64,000 nucleotides of DNA from contig NZ_CP095742.1 in NCBI RefSeq assembly GCF_023078495.1, positions 3,410,001 through 3,474,000 on the forward strand. The letters run 5' to 3'. The notes below the pieces were generated by a model. That model was given only the letters and a program-made list of their open reading frames with translations, did no database searches and was not told the origin of the DNA. A program made the translations under genes and the position numbers. Source of the stretch: Luteibacter aegosomatissinici. GTDB lineage: Bacteria > Pseudomonadota > Gammaproteobacteria > Xanthomonadales > Rhodanobacteraceae. Positions 22,569-32,347 of the stretch are shown here, piece by piece (the stretch's first letter is position 1; every line of letters begins with the position of its first letter).

Positions 22569-23822
22569 TTACAGCGGATGCCGCGTCTGCCCTTCCCCAC
22601 GCACCACAAACCGCTCCACCGTCAACGACTCCGCCCCCATCGGCCCGTACGCATGCAGCCGCGTGGTGGAGATACCGATCTCGGTGCCAAGGCCGAGCTC
22701 ACCGCCATCGCTGAAGCGCGATGACGCGTTCACCATGACCACGGCCGAGCGCAAGGCTTTCACGAAGCGATCGGCGGCGACGATGTCGCGCGTGGCGATC
22801 ACCTCGGTGTGGTCGGAGCCGAAGCGGCGGATGTGGGAGATGGCTTCCTCGATATCCGGGACTACTCGCACGGCGATAACCAGGTCGAGGAATTCGGCGG
22901 CATAGTCCTCGTCGGTCGCCACCTCGACCTCGGGTGCCAGCACACGGGTGGTGTCGTCACCACGCACGGTGACGCCTCGCGCATGCAGTGCGGCCACGGC
23001 CTTTGGCACGAACGAGGCTGCGATATCGTGATGTACCAGCAGGGTTTCGAGGGCGTTGCAGACCCCGGGACGGCTGGTTTTGCCATCGATGAGCAGATCG
23101 ATCGCGAGGGCTTCGTCGGCCTCCTTATCGACGTACAGGTGGCACACGCCCTTGTAGTGCTTGATGACCGGCACGCGGGCGTGTTCCGCCACGAAACGGA
23201 TGAGACCTTCGCCACCGCGGGGAATCGCAAGATCGACGATATCGGTGAGCTGGAGCAGTTCCACCATCGCCTCGCGGCCCGGGTCGTCGATGACCGTGAT
23301 GGCGGCCTCGGGCAAACCTTCGTCGCGGAGCGCACGGCGAAGGGTCGCGGCGATGGCCAGGTTCGAATGCATGGCGTCGGAGCCGCCACGCAGGATGGCG
23401 GCGTTTCCCGCCATGAGGCACAGCGCGGCGGCATCCGCTGTCACGTTGGGTCGCGCCTCGTAGATCATCGCGATGACACCGAGCGGGATACGTACACGTT
23501 CGACGCTGATGCCGTTGGGGCGGATCTCGCGGCGGGTCACCAGACCGACCGGATCGGGAAGCTCTGCGACCTGGCGCATCGCGGTGACGACCCCGGCGAC
23601 GCGGGCTTCATCCAGGCGAAGGCGATCCAGCATCGCCGCGCTGGTGCCGTTGTGCCGGGCGGCCTCGACGTCGCGCGTGTTGGCTTCGAGGACGTGGCGG
23701 GTGTCTGCGGCCAACGCGTCGGCCATCCGGTTGAGCAGGCGCTGCTTGGCCGCCGTATCCAGCGCCGCGATGGCGGGCGCGGCGTCGCGGCAGGCGAGTG
23801 CCTGGTCTCGCAGGTTCGTCAT
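22569..23822 (-). CDS. proA: Gamma-glutamyl phosphate reductase
   Basis: This is the 417-aa second enzyme of proline synthesis; it reduces gamma-glutamyl phosphate to glutamate semialdehyde with NADPH. Aldehyde-dehydrogenase-fold landmarks are [48 protein letters not shown] with the catalytic cysteine, and [20 protein letters not shown]. Its ATG overlaps the proB stop by 4 bp, so synthesis of the two is coupled and supports channelling of the labile phosphate intermediate. It is the last gene of the arg-pro operon. Confidence 0.96.
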
Positions 23823-24958
23823 GGAAGCCTCGCGGGGTCGGGTAGCACCACCAGGTCATCCCGGTGGACGATAGTCTCACCATAGCTGTAGCCCAGCACG
23901 GCCTCGATGTCACGCGTGTGCCGCCGGGCGATCCGGCGCACATCGGTGGCAGCGTACTGGGCGATGCCGCGGGCGAACGGGACACCATCGGCAGCAATCT
24001 CGATCACATCGCCGCGGGCAAACTCGCCCGAGGCGTCGCTCACGCCGCCAGGAAGCAGCGATGCACCGCGGCCACGCACGGCCTCGACGGCGCCGCTATC
24101 GACGCTGATCCGACCCATGGCTGGAGCGTGCCGTAGCCAGTATTTACGTGCCGCCAGGCGCGACTGGGGTGCGCGCAGGCGCGTTCCCGTGAGGAAACCG
24201 TCCGCGAGCCGTGCGATGCCATGCGCGTCGCGGCCGTCGAACAGTACGGTTTCGATGCCTGCGGCAGCGGCCTTCATGGCGGCCTCCAGCTTGGTGCGCA
24301 TACCCCCCGTCCCTGCGGCCGAGCCTGCGCCGCCGGCGCTCTCCAGATGCGCCGCCGTGAGTTCCAGCACCTCCGCCACCGGAACGGCATCCGGATCGAT
24401 ACGCGGATTGGCCGTGTAGAGGCCGGCGATGTCGGAGGCAATGAACAGGACATCCGCATCGACCAGCGCGGCGACGATCGCCGCGAGGTTGTCGTTATCG
24501 CCGAGCTTCAGCTCATCGACGGCGACCGTGTCGTTCTCGTTGATGACGGGAATGGCGCCCAACGCCAGCAGTTCCCGCAGCGTGGTGCGGGCATTGAGGT
24601 AACGGCGGCGGTTGCGCAGGTCGTCGTGGGTCAGCAGGACCTGGGCGACCGGTGCATCGAAGAAGGTCTGCCAGAGCCCGACCAGGCGGGTCTGGCCGAG
24701 TGCAGCAAGCGCCTGGCGACCGCTGAGGCCTGTGCTGCGCGTGGGAACCGGGGCAAGTCCTCGGCCAGCGGCAACGGCACCCGACGACACGATCACCACT
24801 TCCCTGCCCGCATCGCGGCTGGCCCTCACGAACGCGGCCAGCGCATCGGCGTGCTCGCCGGTAAGCGCACCGTCCGGCGTGGTGAGCAGGCTGCTGCCGA
24901 CCTTCAGGACGGCGCGGTGCCATTGGGGTAATGCCTGTTCGGTGAAGCCGGATGACAT
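23819..24958 (-). CDS. proB: Glutamate 5-kinase
   Basis: This 379-aa kinase makes gamma-glutamyl phosphate, the committed and usually proline-inhibited step of proline synthesis. The amino-acid kinase domain (about 15-265) shows [29 protein letters not shown] and [12 protein letters not shown]. The C-terminal PUA domain (about 285-370) begins [16 protein letters not shown] precedes the ATG at 24958. A 100-bp gap holding a REP pair separates it from argH upstream in the same operon direction; the REP may tune the relative level of the arg and pro halves. Confidence 0.96.
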
Positions 24959-24987
24959 CGTGCCTCCGTGAACGAAGCCGGGCTTTG

Positions 24988-25056
24988 TGTAGGAGTGCGC
25001 TTGCGCGCGATCCGGGCGTGTCGCGAGCCCCCATAGCGCGCAAGCGCGCTCCTACA
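24988..25056. repeat. REP element pair inside the arg-pro operon
   Basis: Inverted arms 24988-25010 (GTGTAGGAGTGCGCTTGCGC) and 25034-25056 (TAGCGCGCAAGCGCGCTCCT) lie between argH and proB, just after the argH stop (25059). In this position they could stabilise the upstream message or attenuate readthrough. Confidence 0.8.
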
Positions 25057-25058
25057 GG

Positions 25059-26351
25059 TCAGCCGAGGGTAATAAGCCTCTTGCGCAGTGTGTCGAGCAT
25101 GAGATCGTGGCCTGCGCCGGGTGAGGTGCGCGCGGCCAGGCTGGACTCCGGCGAACGGCCTTCGCCGGCGGAAGCGGCGGTTTCGGCGGCGGCACGGTAG
25201 GCGTCGCGGAACGGCACGCCGGCCACGGCTTGTTCGATCGCCACGTCCGTCGCGTACATCGCCGGCTCGATCGCCGCGCGCATCTTGTCCGCCTTCCACT
25301 CGAAACGGGCCAGCATGTCCGGCAGCAGTTCCAGCGCGCCCAGGCCCATGGAGAAACCATGGAACAGCGAGCCCTTGGAGAACTGCAGGTCGCGCTGGTA
25401 GCCCGAGGGCAACGACAGCAGCTGCTCGATCTCGGTACGGGCGGCGGCGACGCTGGCGTAGCTGGCACGCAGCAGTTCGACCACATCCGGGTTGCGCTTG
25501 TTCGGCATGATCGACGAACCGGTGGTGTACTCCGCCGGCAGCTTCACGAAATCGAACTCGGCCGTGGTGAACAGCGACAGGTCCCACGCCAGGCGACGCG
25601 TATCCAGGAGCGCGGTGCCGACGGCGTCCAGCGCGGCCATCTCGAACTTGCCGCGCGAGAGCTGGGCGTAGATCGGCGAGACCTGCATGCGGGCGAAGCC
25701 GAGTGCCTGCGTGGTGTGCGCGCGGTCCAGCGCCACGTTCACGCCGTAGCCTGCGGCCGTGCCCAGCGGGTTGGCATCGATCAGCTCGAGTGCCTGGCGG
25801 GCACGCAGGGTGTTATCGATGAAGGCTTCGGCGAAGGCTGCAAACCACATGCCCGTGGAAGACACCACGGCACGCTGGATGTGCGTGTAGCCCGGCATCG
25901 GCACCGCTTCACCACTGGCGCGATCAAGACACACCTCGGCGATACGGCGGCAAACGGCCTCCAGCGTCGAAAGCTTGTCCTTCAGCCACAGGCGCGTCGC
26001 CACCAGGATCTGGTCGTTGCGGCTGCGACCGGTGTGTACGCGGCGGCCTGCATCGCCAAGACGCTCGGTCAGGCGTGCCTCGATGGCCGAATGTCCATCC
26101 TCGAAGCGGTCATCGAGCACGAAGGTGCCCGCCGAAAAATCGGCCGCCAACGCATCGAGCTCGCGCTTCAGCGCATCGCGCTCATCGGCCGACACGACCC
26201 CAATGTTGGCCAGGCCCTCCACGTGCGCCTTGCTGGCGGTGATGTCGTGCAGGAAGAACTCGCGATCGAGGACCACGTCGTTACCCGCAAGGAAACGCAT
26301 GATCTTCGCATCGACCTGCGTATCGGATTTCTGCCAGAGCGGCTGGGTCAT
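25059..26351 (-). CDS. argH: Argininosuccinate lyase
   Basis: This is a 430-aa enzyme of the fumarase/aspartase superfamily; it splits argininosuccinate into arginine and fumarate, the last step of arginine synthesis. Seen: [10 protein letters not shown] (substrate site), [17 protein letters not shown], and the superfamily signature [13 protein letters not shown] with the catalytic serine loop. AAGGA precedes the ATG at 26351; an earlier in-frame start overlaps argC. It is somewhat shorter than the E. coli protein but complete. argC ends 10 bp upstream. Confidence 0.95.
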
Positions 26352-26361
26352 TGTGGAATCC

Positions 26362-27309
<948 letters not shown>

Positions 27310-27318
27310 GGCTAGGTT

Positions 27319-28621
<1,303 letters not shown>

Positions 28622-28632
<11 letters not shown>

Positions 28633-29719
28633 GTTCGACGATCCGGTGGATGGTCTGGGCGTAATGGGCGAGCTGATCGAGCGCGACCCATTCGTCGGCG
28701 GTATGGGCCTGGGCGATATCGCCGGGACCATAAACGAAGCAGGTGTATCCCGCCTTGGAGAACAATGCGGCCTCGGTCCAGAAATCGACGGCGTTACCCA
28801 CCGGGATCTCCAGCTCATCGGCCAGATCGCGCGCAGCGAGGCGGCGTGCCTCAGCCGTGGCGGTATCGCCCGCAGGGAGCGAGTCGCCGCGGAAGGTCTC
28901 TCCGAACTCCACCGGCTGCGGATCGACCAGCGTGCGGAAGGTCTCCAGCAGCTGGTCGGCGTCCATGGACGGCAACGGGCGGAAGCCGAAACGCACCTCA
29001 GCGGCCGGAGCGATCACGTTGGCCTTGATGCCGCCTTCGATCTTGCCCAGGTTGAAGCGCAGGCCGGTGAGCCCGCCGAAACGCTCGTGCGAGAGCGACT
29101 GCACATGATCGAGCGCCGCCGTGCCCCAGCGCACCGCCTGGTGCAGCGCGCTGTCCGAGGGCTTCTGCTCACCCGAGGCATGGCCGGCGCGGCCCTTGAA
29201 CTGCATGAGTACCGACAGGATGCCACGGTGCGCCAGCACCGCTTCACCCTTGGTCGGCTCTGCGACGATGACGGCATCGTACGCCGGCTTGTCCTTGAGG
29301 AAGCCATCGATACAGCGCGCATCGTTCGCTTCTTCATCGGTGGAGAGCAGCAGCGCCATGTCGCCCTTCGAGGCGTTGGCGACCGCCACCAGTGCCGCCG
29401 CAGCACCCTTGATATCGCAGGCGCCCAGGCCGATCGCACGGTCGTCTGTCACACGAAGTTCGTGCGGGCTCGCCGTCCAGTGCGGCGAATCCGGCACGGT
29501 ATCCAGGTGCACGTTGAACAGGATTTTCGGCGTGCCACGCACGGCGTACAGGTTCACCGCGCCCGCGCCGAAATCGGTCACCTGCACGTCGAACCCCGGG
29601 AGGTTCGCGCGCAGGTAATCGAAGATGCCACCGGTACCGATCTCACGCGGCGGGTTGCGCGTGTCGTACGAAACGAGCGCACGCAGGTGGTCGAGGGTTT
29701 CCTTCAGGAGATTATCCAT
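28622..29719 (-). CDS. argE': M20 deacetylase: N-acetyl-L-citrulline (or acetylornithine) deacetylase
   Basis: This 365-aa M20-family zinc hydrolase has the metal ligands [31 protein letters not shown] and, near the C-terminus, [15 protein letters not shown]. In this operon the carbamoyltransferase acts on acetylornithine, so the expected substrate is N-acetylcitrulline, giving citrulline for ArgG, as in Xanthomonas. Some activity on acetylornithine is possible. It lies 10 bp after argG and overlaps the next gene by 11 bp. Confidence 0.9.
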
Positions 29720-29729
29720 GGGTGCTCGA

Positions 29730-30938
29730 TCACTTCCCGCCGTTGGCTCGGTCGACTTCAGCCCAGATCGTCGAGCTCATGCCGTACAGCTTGATGAAGC
29801 CTTCGGCTTCGGCGACGCCCCAGTCGGCGGCCTGCGCGTAGGTGGCCTTCTTCGAGTGCAGCAGGTTCTTCGATTCCACCTTCACGGCGTACACGGTGCC
29901 GCCGCGGGTTTCGATGATGACCTTGCCATCGACCTTGCGCTGGGTGCTCACCAGGTAGGCTTCCAGGTCAGCCTTGATCGGATCGTTGAAGAAGCCTTCG
30001 TAGGCGATCTCGGTCCACTTGCGGCCGATTTCCGGCTTGAAGCGGTTCTGCTGCTTCGACAGCACGGTTTCTTCCAGCGCACGGTGCGCGGTCAGCAGCG
30101 CAGTAAGCGCCGGCGCTTCGAACACGATGCGGCCCTTCAGGCCGATGTTCGTGTCACCGGTGTACAGGCTACGGCCGACGCCGTACTTCGCCAGTTCACG
30201 GTTGAGGAACCCCAGGATTTCCGGGCCGGTAGCAGCCTTGCCGTTCAGCGTGGTGGCAACGCCCTTGTCGAAGCCGAGCTCGATGCGCAGCGGTTCGGAC
30301 GGCCATTCGGCGCGCGGTGCGCACCAGGCCACGGCGCCCTCTTCCGGGATCTCCCACGCATCGATTTCGCCGCCGGAGATGGTCACGCCCAGCACGTTCT
30401 CGTTGATGGTGTAGTGCTTGGTCTTGGCGCGGACTTCGAAGCCCTTGTCTTCCAGGTACTTCTGCTCGTAGGCACGCACCTGGGTGTGCTCGCGCTGGAT
30501 CTCGCGGATCGGGGCGATGATGGTGTAGTCGCCGAGCGCCTTCACAGTCAGGTCGAAACGAACCTGGTCGTTGCCCATGCCGGTGCAGCCGTGGGCGAAC
30601 AGCTTGGTGCCCAGCTCGTCGCAGCGCTCCAGCGAGGCCTTCACGATGAGGTAGCGGTCGGACACCAGCAGCGGGTACTGGCCCTGGTAGAACTCGCCGG
30701 CCCAGATCAACGGGGTGACGAAGCTATCCCAGATCGCCTGCGAGGCATCGACCGTGCGATGCGAAGCCGCGCCCAGTTCGTGGGCGCGCTGCTCGATGTA
30801 CTCGCGCTCTTCCGCGGACACACCACCCGTATCGACGAACACGGTGTGCACGGCATAGCCGCGCTCCATCAGGTAGGGGACGCAGAAGCTGGTGTCGAGG
30901 CCGCCCGAGAAGGCGAGGACGATATCTTTGCTGGACAT
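29730..30938 (-). CDS. argG: Argininosuccinate synthase
   Basis: This 402-aa ligase joins citrulline and aspartate with ATP. Seen: the PP-loop ATP site [12 protein letters not shown] (8-19), the [13 protein letters not shown] region and [22 protein letters not shown] precedes the ATG at 30938, which is preferred over an in-frame start 6 codons earlier. The 94-bp gap to argF' contains a GC-rich hairpin (31003-31022). Confidence 0.95.
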
Positions 30939-31002
30939 GCTGGCTCCGGAAATCAAGGCGTTTTAATGAGGTAAGGCGAACACAAGGGCGTTACGGAAAG
31001 GT

Positions 31003-31032: not shown

Positions 31033-32064
31033 TCAGAAGCCGAGACCCGACTTGATGCCGGGCTGCGCCATGAGCGAAGCCATCACGGCCTTCTGCACAT
31101 GCAGGCGGTTTTCCGCCTCGTCGATCGCGATACAGGCGGGCGAATCCATCACCGCGTCCGTCGCCTTGATGTTCCGACGCAGCGGCAGGCAGTGGCTGAA
31201 GAGGCCGTTGTCGGTGAGGGCCATCTTGGCTTCGTCCACGATGAAGTGCTTGTTTGCGTCGCGAATGGCCTTCTCTTCATCCCAGCGGCCGAAGTACGGG
31301 ATGGCGCCCCAGCTCTTGGCGTAGACGACGTGCGCGCCACTGTAGGCGGCTTCGATATCGTGCGAGACCTGCAGCGAGCCACCGTTTTCCTTCGCGTTCT
31401 GCGCCGCGAAATCCATGTAGCGCTGGTCGAGGATGTACTCCGGCGTGGGGCACAGCAGGGTCACGTCCATGCCCATCTTGGTCGCGATCAGCAGCGCCGA
31501 ATTGGCCACGGCGGTGTTCAGCGGCTTCGGGTGGTAGGTCCAGGTCAGCACGTACTTCTTGTTCTGCAGGTCACCCAGGTGCTCCTTCATGGCCAGCGCG
31601 TGGGCCAGCTCCTGGCAGGGGTGGGTGATGGTCTCCATGTTGATGACCGGCACCGTGGCGTACTGGGCGAACGCCTTGAGCACCTTGTCCTGGCGATCGA
31701 CCTGCCAGTCCTGGAACTTGGGGAAGGCGCGGACGGCAATGATGTCGACGTAGCGCGACAGCACCCGGGCCACTTCGGCAATGTGCTCCTCGGTGTCACC
31801 GTCCATGACCGTGCCGACCTCGAACTCGATGGGCCATGCGTCCTTGCCCGGCGCCAGCACCACCGCGTGGCCACCCATCTGGAACGCACCGATCTCGAAG
31901 CTGGTGCGGGTGCGCATGGACGGGTTGAAGAACATCAGGGCGATGGACTTGCCGGCCAGCTGCTGGCCCTGGGGCGAGCGCTTGAATTCGGCGGCCTGCG
32001 CGAGCAGGGCGTCGATCTCGGCGCGGCTGTAGTCGGTGGTGTTGAGGAAGTGGCGAACGGTCAT
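31033..32064 (-). CDS. argF': N-acetylornithine carbamoyltransferase
   Basis: This 343-aa transcarbamylase is of the Xanthomonas AOTC type; it makes N-acetylcitrulline from N-acetylornithine and carbamoyl phosphate. The carbamoyl-phosphate loop is SMRTRT (49-54). AOTC-specific residues are present: W77 in KDAWPIE, E92 in DGDTEEH (the residue that selects acetylornithine over succinylornithine in Xanthomonas), and K300 in RRNIKATD, equivalent to the carboxylated K302. THPCQELAHAL and HCLPLRRN complete the active site. It is the first gene of the eight-gene arg-pro operon and is preceded by the leader described at 32125-32243. Confidence 0.96.
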   Translation of the reverse strand: MTVRHFLNTTDYSRAEIDALLAQAAEFKRSPQGQQLAGKSIALMFFNPSMRTRTSFEIGAFQMGGHAVVLAPGKDAWPIEFEVGTVMDGDTEEHIAEVARVLSRYVDIIAVRAFPKFQDWQVDRQDKVLKAFAQYATVPVINMETITHPCQELAHALAMKEHLGDLQNKKYVLTWTYHPKPLNTAVANSALLIATKMGMDVTLLCPTPEYILDQRYMDFAAQNAKENGGSLQVSHDIEAAYSGAHVVYAKSWGAIPYFGRWDEEKAIRDANKHFIVDEAKMALTDNGLFSHCLPLRRNIKATDAVMDSPACIAIDEAENRLHVQKAVMASLMAQPGIKSGLGF

Positions 32065-32124: not shown

Positions 32125-32153
32125 AAAAAACCCGGCACGGGGCCGGGTTTTTT
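32125..32153 (-). terminator. Intrinsic terminator in the arg leader
   Basis: A 12-bp stem, half GC and half A-T, with a 5-nt loop and a run of six T, lies 61 bp upstream of argF'. No other gene on this strand ends here, since the upstream gene has its own terminator at 32404-32433. This supports a role in the leader. Confidence 0.85.
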
Positions 32154-32183
32154 AGTCGTTGCGTATGAAATGCGCGCGACAGC

Positions 32184-32231
32184 CTACCCGGCCGAGTATC
32201 CAATGTACGGTCGACGAGCACGGGACGTCAT
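32184..32231 (-). CDS. Candidate arginine leader peptide (15 aa)
   Basis: ATG at 32231 encodes MTSRARRPYIGYSAG and then TAG. Three of residues 4-7 are arginine (CGT, CGT, CGA). An in-frame ATG at 32243 would add MAAG at the N-terminus. The ribosome-binding site is the weak point: AGGA touches the ATG at 32231, and nothing clear precedes 32243. The position and the complementary arm at the stop codon are what support translation. Confidence 0.5.
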   Translation of the reverse strand: MTSRARRPYIGYSAG

Positions 32232-32318
32232 TCCTGCGGCCATGCGGGCGCTGGTATAGACGTTCGAGGTGTAGTCGGCGTGGGACACGGTCGGGGTCGG
32301 AAAAAAGGTGAAGCGTCG

Positions 32319-32347
32319 ATAATGCCGTGGATTGGTGCGCTGCGCAA
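32319..32347 (-). promoter_or_regulatory. Candidate promoter of the arg-pro operon
   Basis: TTGCGC (32347-32342) and CATTAT (32324-32319) are spaced 17 bp on the reverse strand, just after the upstream gene's terminator. This would give a leader of about 250 nt. The hexamers are only moderate matches. Confidence 0.35.

Follow-up and report, generated by a model that had tools for sequence, protein, structure and literature searches.

What controls arginine synthesis in Luteibacter aegosomatissinici, in whose genome the ArgR domain PF01316 was not found? We analysed a window of 64,000 nt from this genome (NZ_CP095742.1, positions 3,410,001–3,474,000; coordinates below are window positions), in which the region between a glycine-zipper lipoprotein gene (33020–32460) and argF', both on the minus strand, combines Arg codons clustered in a putative short leader, a terminator before the first gene, an antiterminator arm and a spacing that would suit attenuation (Table 1). 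The genes from argF' through the proA-like ORF probably form one operon; by eye we take ORFs 23819–24958 and 22569–23822 to be proB and proA, and the argH-like gene scored 275.5 against a cut-off of 279.5, just below it. An earlier note on this DNA had read the region as an arginine attenuator before the arg–pro genes. All the elements that it named are present: the frame MTSRARRPYIGYSAG starting at ATG 32231, its Arg codons, the arm GGCCGGGT, the complementary ACCCGGCC and the terminator, which lies about 60 bp from the argF' start at 32064. As to both kind and mechanism, the comparison of sequences strongly supports that reading, and we consider it very probable that the element controls transcription as a ribosome-mediated attenuator responding to arginyl-tRNA. 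The parts, their mutual exclusivity and covariation, the spacing and the conservation of the Arg codons can be followed in the sequences themselves; the direction of the response, the promoter and the dynamics of the switch are what we infer.

Table 1 Features of the predicted arginine attenuator and the genes behind it (window positions)
Feature	Position	Strand	Basis or remark
-35-like TTGCGC	32342..32347	-	Sequence; TTGC kept in relatives
Putative -10-like CATTAT, 17 nt from the -35	32319..32324	-	Sequence; relatives by eye
Putative ORF of 34 codons, from GTG to TAG, for the leader peptide (M)SHADYTSNVYTSARMAAGMTSRARRPYIGYSAG	32184..32288	-	Aligns with leaders of Dyella and Rhodanobacter relatives that start at ATG
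MTSRARR, the frozen core, which contains the regulatory Arg codons	32211..32231	-	Conservation, pN/pS
Arg codons CGT, CGT, CGA	32222-32220, 32216-32214, 32213-32211	-	R23, R25 and R26 of the leader
Antiterminator arm GGCCGGGT	32186..32193	-	Overlaps the last leader codons and base 1 of the TAG
Predicted alternative protector hairpin region	32168..32222	-	RNAfold only; limits approximate
Intrinsic terminator AAAAAACCCGGC-CCCGT-GCCGGGTTTTTT	32125..32153	-	Terminator scan, alignment
Terminator 5' arm ACCCGGCC, partner of the antiterminator arm	32141..32148	-	Sequence
argF', N-acetylornithine carbamoyltransferase, first operon gene	31033..32064	-	NF003384, 609.6 bits (cut-off 288)
argG, acetylornithine deacetylase family, argB-type kinase, argC, argH-like, then proB/proA-like ORFs	22569..30956	-	

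The earlier note had described a leader of 15 codons. That frame is real but is not the complete leader: it begins at an internal Met and forms the last 15 of 34 codons. Conservation places the start 19 codons upstream of ATG 32231, at GTG 32288 here and at an ATG in most relatives. In the sequences examined among the best 80 of 572 argF' relatives, mostly from Luteibacter, Dyella, Rhodanobacter and Frateuria, the frame is present upstream of argF', usually starting ATG TCC, with variable N- and C-terminal residues, and a script found its core in 80/80 of these best relatives. Across the order, argF' had a match at E ≤ 1e-60 in 267 of 299 genomes, and the upstream side was taken for 80 of the 267. 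We number the families f1 to f12; f1 is presumably Rhodanobacteraceae and f2 Xanthomonadaceae. In f1–f4 the core leader was found in 170/170 loci examined, some genomes being represented twice among them (as a named contig and under a G handle). The script accounted for 169 of these (102 in f1, 57 in f2, 3 in f3 and 7 in f4, with 164 distinct leaders), and L233 in f2 was added. The core reads MTSRARR in all except one, which has MASRARR (L135). A search of 369 genomes of the class with the core pattern (TCN for Ser, CGN only for Arg, zero mismatch) matched seven, five of them in the order; the remaining two matches coincide with longer frames, on their own or the opposite strand, and look like chance.

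A transcription start downstream of 32184 was one outcome that the earlier note held against its own reading. What the relatives keep instead is a candidate promoter element upstream of the leader: of 166 distinct f1–f4 leaders, 163 have TTGC within the 47 nt that precede the leader start (base shuffles: mean 29, maximum 41), and in the leaders examined by eye an AT-rich element comes about 17 nt after it. A strict consensus scan at the window locus did not find a sigma-70 promoter, and no Shine–Dalgarno sequence was seen before GTG 32288. Transcription would be expected to start near 32312, which would give the window leader a 5' UTR of about 24 nt. At several loci (L212, L213, L218–L221, L224 and L231) the -10-like element ends about 6–9 nt before the leader ATG, and these leaders may be read without a 5' UTR, by leaderless initiation; in L216 and L217 the element is not so close to the ATG. 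On the 3' side of the upstream lipoprotein gene, by eye and outside the results of the terminator scan, stands a terminator-like GGCCGCGAGCAATCGCGGCCTTTTT (32433–32409, minus strand); placed behind that gene, it may limit how much transcription runs on into the arg leader.

The pairing of GGCCGGGT with ACCCGGCC, on which the proposed switch turns, was followed in an alignment of 65 f1 and f2 leaders, chosen by hand from 152 references (52 f2, 100 f1) with near-duplicates left out; loci without a terminator match or of odd length had been dropped before the set of 152. Of the 455 cells that make up the seven antiterminator pairs, 98.7% are paired, against 27–52% when one side is slid by 1–3 columns; for the terminator the figure is 100%, and two of its pairs covary. 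One antiterminator column pair reads UA in 38 leaders, CG in 22, UG in 4 and another combination in 1. The number of covarying pairs was reached by 253/500 shuffles for the antiterminator and 475/500 for the terminator, because variation is absent from most positions; cells changed on both sides were as numerous in 0/500 shuffles for either structure. Independent covariation events are few. In genus g30 of f9, arm and partner have changed together (CCAGGTT with AACCTGG). As aligned, the predicted antiterminator and terminator are mutually exclusive and their arms covary. The earlier note had looked to relatives for Arg-rich short frames, a terminator and a complementary arm kept through compensatory changes, and would have taken loss of the Arg codons or of the pairing as evidence against its reading; in the relatives examined all three are kept with such changes, and both the Arg codons and the pairing are conserved.

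A script found an intrinsic terminator in 184 of 190 upstream stretches. No more than 1 of 40 shuffles per locus equalled or exceeded the best arm at 93/102 loci of f1, 38/56 of f2 and 13/15 of the deeper families, and this was so at 0/3 f3, 0/6 f4 and 0/2 f10 loci; the candidate arm in f3 and f4 therefore rests on position and likeness, its own score not being sufficient. Some of the misses are wrong picks by the script, which chose the wrong arm in, for example, L153, L161, L162 and L167, and others are short 6-bp arms; the arm of L153 has a C.A mismatch and that of L187 pairs over 5 bp only. In L126–L131 and L148 the stop codon falls immediately ahead of the arm or on its first base and GCTGGG is nevertheless preserved, so in these loci the arm is kept as RNA and not as codons.

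Folding of five leaders with RNAfold gave the structures that such a switch would need. Free RNA folded into the protector and the terminator, RNA from a ribosome at R26 to the end of the terminator 5' arm folded into the antiterminator, and RNA with a ribosome at the stop codon folded into the terminator. When all of the RNA beyond the stalled ribosome was allowed to fold, the terminator was the lower energy state in 5/5. With the terminator favoured even when the ribosome stands at the Arg codons, the switch would be kinetic, set by folding order; known attenuators likewise depend on the order of folding. The protector hairpin was predicted in all five leaders, and covariation in it was seen in f2 by eye, uncounted. 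A second pairing that the earlier note had offered as a masking arm (GGCCG with CGGCC) was not confirmed as written: the folding gives a different, longer protector.

The distances on which the earlier note relied also fit. In the window GGCCGGGT begins 17 nt past the CGA codon and relatives have similar spacing: with arms picked by script, it is 17 nt at 64/102 f1 loci and 17–18 nt at 45/55 f2 loci, the deviating values being partly wrong picks. Given the size of the ribosome footprint, the arm should be free when a ribosome has its A site at an Arg codon and covered when the ribosome stands at the stop codon. The switch would then work as follows. A leader transcript starting near 32312 would be translated at once. 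With charged tRNA-Arg plentiful, the ribosome would pass R23-A-R25-R26, reach the stop codon and cover GGCCGGGT, so that the terminator would form and the arg genes would be off. With Arg-tRNA scarce, it would stall when one of these Arg codons, most probably the CGA, is in its A site, leaving GGCCGGGT free to pair with ACCCGGCC; this pairing would block the terminator and the arg–pro genes would be transcribed. Without a ribosome, the protector hairpin would take up part of GGCCGGGT, making termination the default. A less certain second layer may act in f1–f4, where a nascent chain ending in AxxAxGMTSRAR would slow translation at R26; three Arg codons would then suffice where other families mostly use longer runs.

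The deeper families offer a comparison in which the peptide is different. The core is absent from 20 loci of f5–f11, to which we added 6 more from f8, f9 and f10, giving a set of 26 loci without it. A scripted search of the 20 recovered, at 15 of them, the same succession of Arg-rich frame, antiterminator arm and terminator, and at the 6 further loci (L234–L239) an Arg-rich frame, a terminator and a plausible arm were seen by eye. L215 has the frame and terminator, and the arm was not found there. A leader before argF' was not seen at L214, L225, L227 and L229 (f6 and f10), where the operon may start elsewhere; other f10 loci have a leader. Except for their arginine runs these leader peptides are unrelated (for example, NPRRRRVLQSTAG, LRRRRRSSQRRAG, GRRARRTRRPLLAG, VARRLRRSKFMPGC and VVRRRPRPRIYAG). 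To judge from these predicted leaders, the amino acid is kept and the peptide is not, which is the pattern predicted by codon sensing. At these 15 deep loci the last Arg codon lies 10–18 nt before the arm in all but L217, where the distance is 27 nt, and the 48 nt before the arm hold 73 Arg codons in the leader frame against 15 and 12 in the other frames; the choice of frames by Arg content biases both the spacing and the frame counts toward the leader frame.

Two irregular arrangements were seen in these families. The leader region of L220 (f8) is tandemly doubled, with the same peptide twice and N between the copies, and represents either a duplicated attenuator or an assembly fault. In L235 and L238 (f9) the candidate arm, CTTTGG or CTCTTTGG, matches by eye the terminator loop and not the 5' arm; in L238, with terminator CCAAAGAG, it also matches the terminator 3' arm. 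As far as can be judged by eye, these arms would be a different wiring of the same switch.

In f1–f4, by contrast with these unrelated peptides, the core is frozen as a peptide. Among 163 leaders compared as 78 disjoint pairs of near relatives, a tree-free count, pN/pS was 0.007 for MTSRARR, 0.63 for the N-terminal stretch and 1.09 for the five codons after Pro27, and the seven core codons showed 64 synonymous differences versus 1 nonsynonymous difference. Thr21 is Thr in 163/164 leaders (Ala in one) and is encoded by ACG in 70, ACC in 66, ACT in 21 and ACA in 6. The strictly kept block ends at Arg26, with Pro27 in 153/164. By pN/pS, then, selection at the peptide level acts on the residues just before the expected stall codon, as in arrest peptides. 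The last Arg codon itself is CGA in 160/164 distinct leaders and is replaced in 4/164. Elsewhere this codon is rare: it accounts for 5/259 Arg codons across ten ORFs of the window (used with their listed starts, some of which lie too far upstream) and 25/1426 in 80 f1 argF' genes. The deep leaders are enriched in it too, at 22/77 Arg codons (16 loci) against 22/291 in their own argF' genes (Fisher p = 4e-6, kinship uncorrected).

Codon sensing alone offers no evident reason for keeping Met, Thr, Ser and Ala, nor for CGA. In reporters built on the his leader of Salmonella, de-attenuation was reportedly strong with Arg pairs that included CGA (PMC4046918), and another paper gives the selective charging of Arg isoacceptors as verified (PMC1183508). 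On these grounds, together with the frozen core and the fixed CGA, we propose that in f1–f4 a slow codon and a stalling nascent chain may replace the longer Arg runs of other families, the nascent chain helping to stall the ribosome. A fuller version of this proposal, which we put forward tentatively and would not yet call probable, is that an ancestral Arg-run attenuator was rebuilt in the ancestor of the four families around an AxxAxGMTSRAR arrest chain stalling at a single slow CGA, so that arginyl-tRNA would be read by peptide-enhanced stalling, in a hybrid sensor that would substitute, through most of the order, for the missing ArgR.

The frozen core can also be explained without any role for the peptide. 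A pure codon-sensing attenuator, in which MTSRARR would be kept only as RNA of the protector hairpin and for placing the Arg codons, is a serious possibility, if one that stops short of being the expected answer. The deep families seem functional with unrelated peptides, in the RNAfold structures some of the core RNA is paired to sequence past the stop codon, and the near-fixed TCG (161/164) and CGA-CCG (160 and 151/164) resemble an RNA constraint. Yet third positions vary where the residues are fixed, as the four ACN codons of Thr21 and the excess of synonymous differences in the core illustrate, and CGA is retained in L173, L204 and L206 although the next codon is not CCG. If selection does act on the peptide, it might do so after release: the leader peptide could act in trans, as reported for peTrpL of Sinorhizobium (PMC7298713), with the attenuator as a second role. 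That would explain the frozen core, but strict conservation ends at the expected stall codon and near-neutral codons begin two positions on, a pattern that better fits a nascent chain acting in cis, and we regard action in trans as quite unlikely.

The nascent chain could instead be the sensor itself, arrested by free arginine or a pathway intermediate as the main signal in place of uncharged tRNA. The frozen residues would sit in the exit tunnel next to the peptidyl-transferase centre, and orf34 of speF joins consecutive Arg codons to a conserved peptide, as the accessible part of that report describes (PMC6386406). Stalling at the Arg codons would lead to readthrough, however, which gives arginine as the arresting ligand the wrong sign, and the deep families have Arg runs without a common peptide; we consider such a small-molecule sensor unlikely. 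As for a constitutive intergenic terminator beside a chance short frame, the upstream lipoprotein gene is on the same strand and a terminator between the genes would be unremarkable in itself. That gene, however, has the terminator-like GGCCGCGAGCAATCGCGGCCTTTTT of its own, and leader, arm, spacing and terminator are conserved order-wide; we reject the combination on this conservation and give it almost no credence.

The attenuator favoured here resembles those of his, trp, thr, leu, ilv and phe in having a leader ORF with codons for the end product, an antiterminator, a protector and an intrinsic terminator before a biosynthetic operon; it differs from them in being specific for arginine and, in f1–f4, in a peptide frozen outside the regulatory codons. 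Arginine T-boxes are likewise RNA switches on arginine genes that answer the charging of tRNA-Arg, but there the tRNA binds the RNA directly and no ribosome takes part. The fungal arginine attenuator peptide is similar as a leader peptide linked to arginine; it is, however, a eukaryotic uORF product that stalls with free arginine and controls translation. From the part of the speF report available, orf34 of Salmonella is alike in its consecutive Arg codons sensing arginine and its conserved peptide, whereas its target is ornithine decarboxylase, controlled through mRNA stability and translation and not through an intrinsic terminator at an arg operon, and the peptide is another one (PMC6386406). 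rbfL of Staphylococcus aureus is also a leader peptide sensing arginine through rare Arg codons, but in the accessible text it has eight residues, uses AGA/AGG, and acts on translation by blocking the RBS, with expression falling when arginine is scarce (PMC13009471).

In the whole window there was no Rfam match at the gathering score, and on this ground we reject a T-box, riboswitch or other known RNA family here. A 2005 comparative paper, in its available part, lists arginine under T-boxes and histidine, threonine and phenylalanine under attenuators (PMC1262725), and the word arginine is absent from the main text of a 2010 survey of premature terminators (PMC2965389). Our full-text literature search, whose scope left out most subscription journals, recognised no description of an arginine attenuator at an arg operon. 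An arginine-specific ribosome-mediated attenuator thus appears to be undescribed in the searchable literature. A new feature is the freezing of MTSRARR as a peptide, with its last Arg codon fixed as CGA, in four families. An order-wide attenuator and a peptide frozen in four families both go beyond the earlier note.

The distribution of the attenuator can be set beside that of the arginine repressor. ArgR (PF01316) was found in 8/121 genomes of the order, all in the outlying family f12. The four f12 loci examined have a distant transcarbamylase only (40–42% identity), and the attenuator leader is absent from them. In the 121-genome sample, the attenuator accompanies the absence of ArgR. Before carA of the L. 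aegosomatissinici genome itself (L244), no Arg-rich leader with a terminator was seen by eye.

In the searchable papers, arginine is not among the amino acids with a known ribosome-mediated attenuator at a biosynthetic operon. The order-wide case described here suggests how arginine synthesis may be controlled where ArgR is not found. It also provides a natural set of leaders, ranging between those with Arg runs and a frozen peptide that has three Arg codons and a single rare CGA, in which one can ask how a codon-sensing attenuator becomes, or joins, a nascent-chain sensor.
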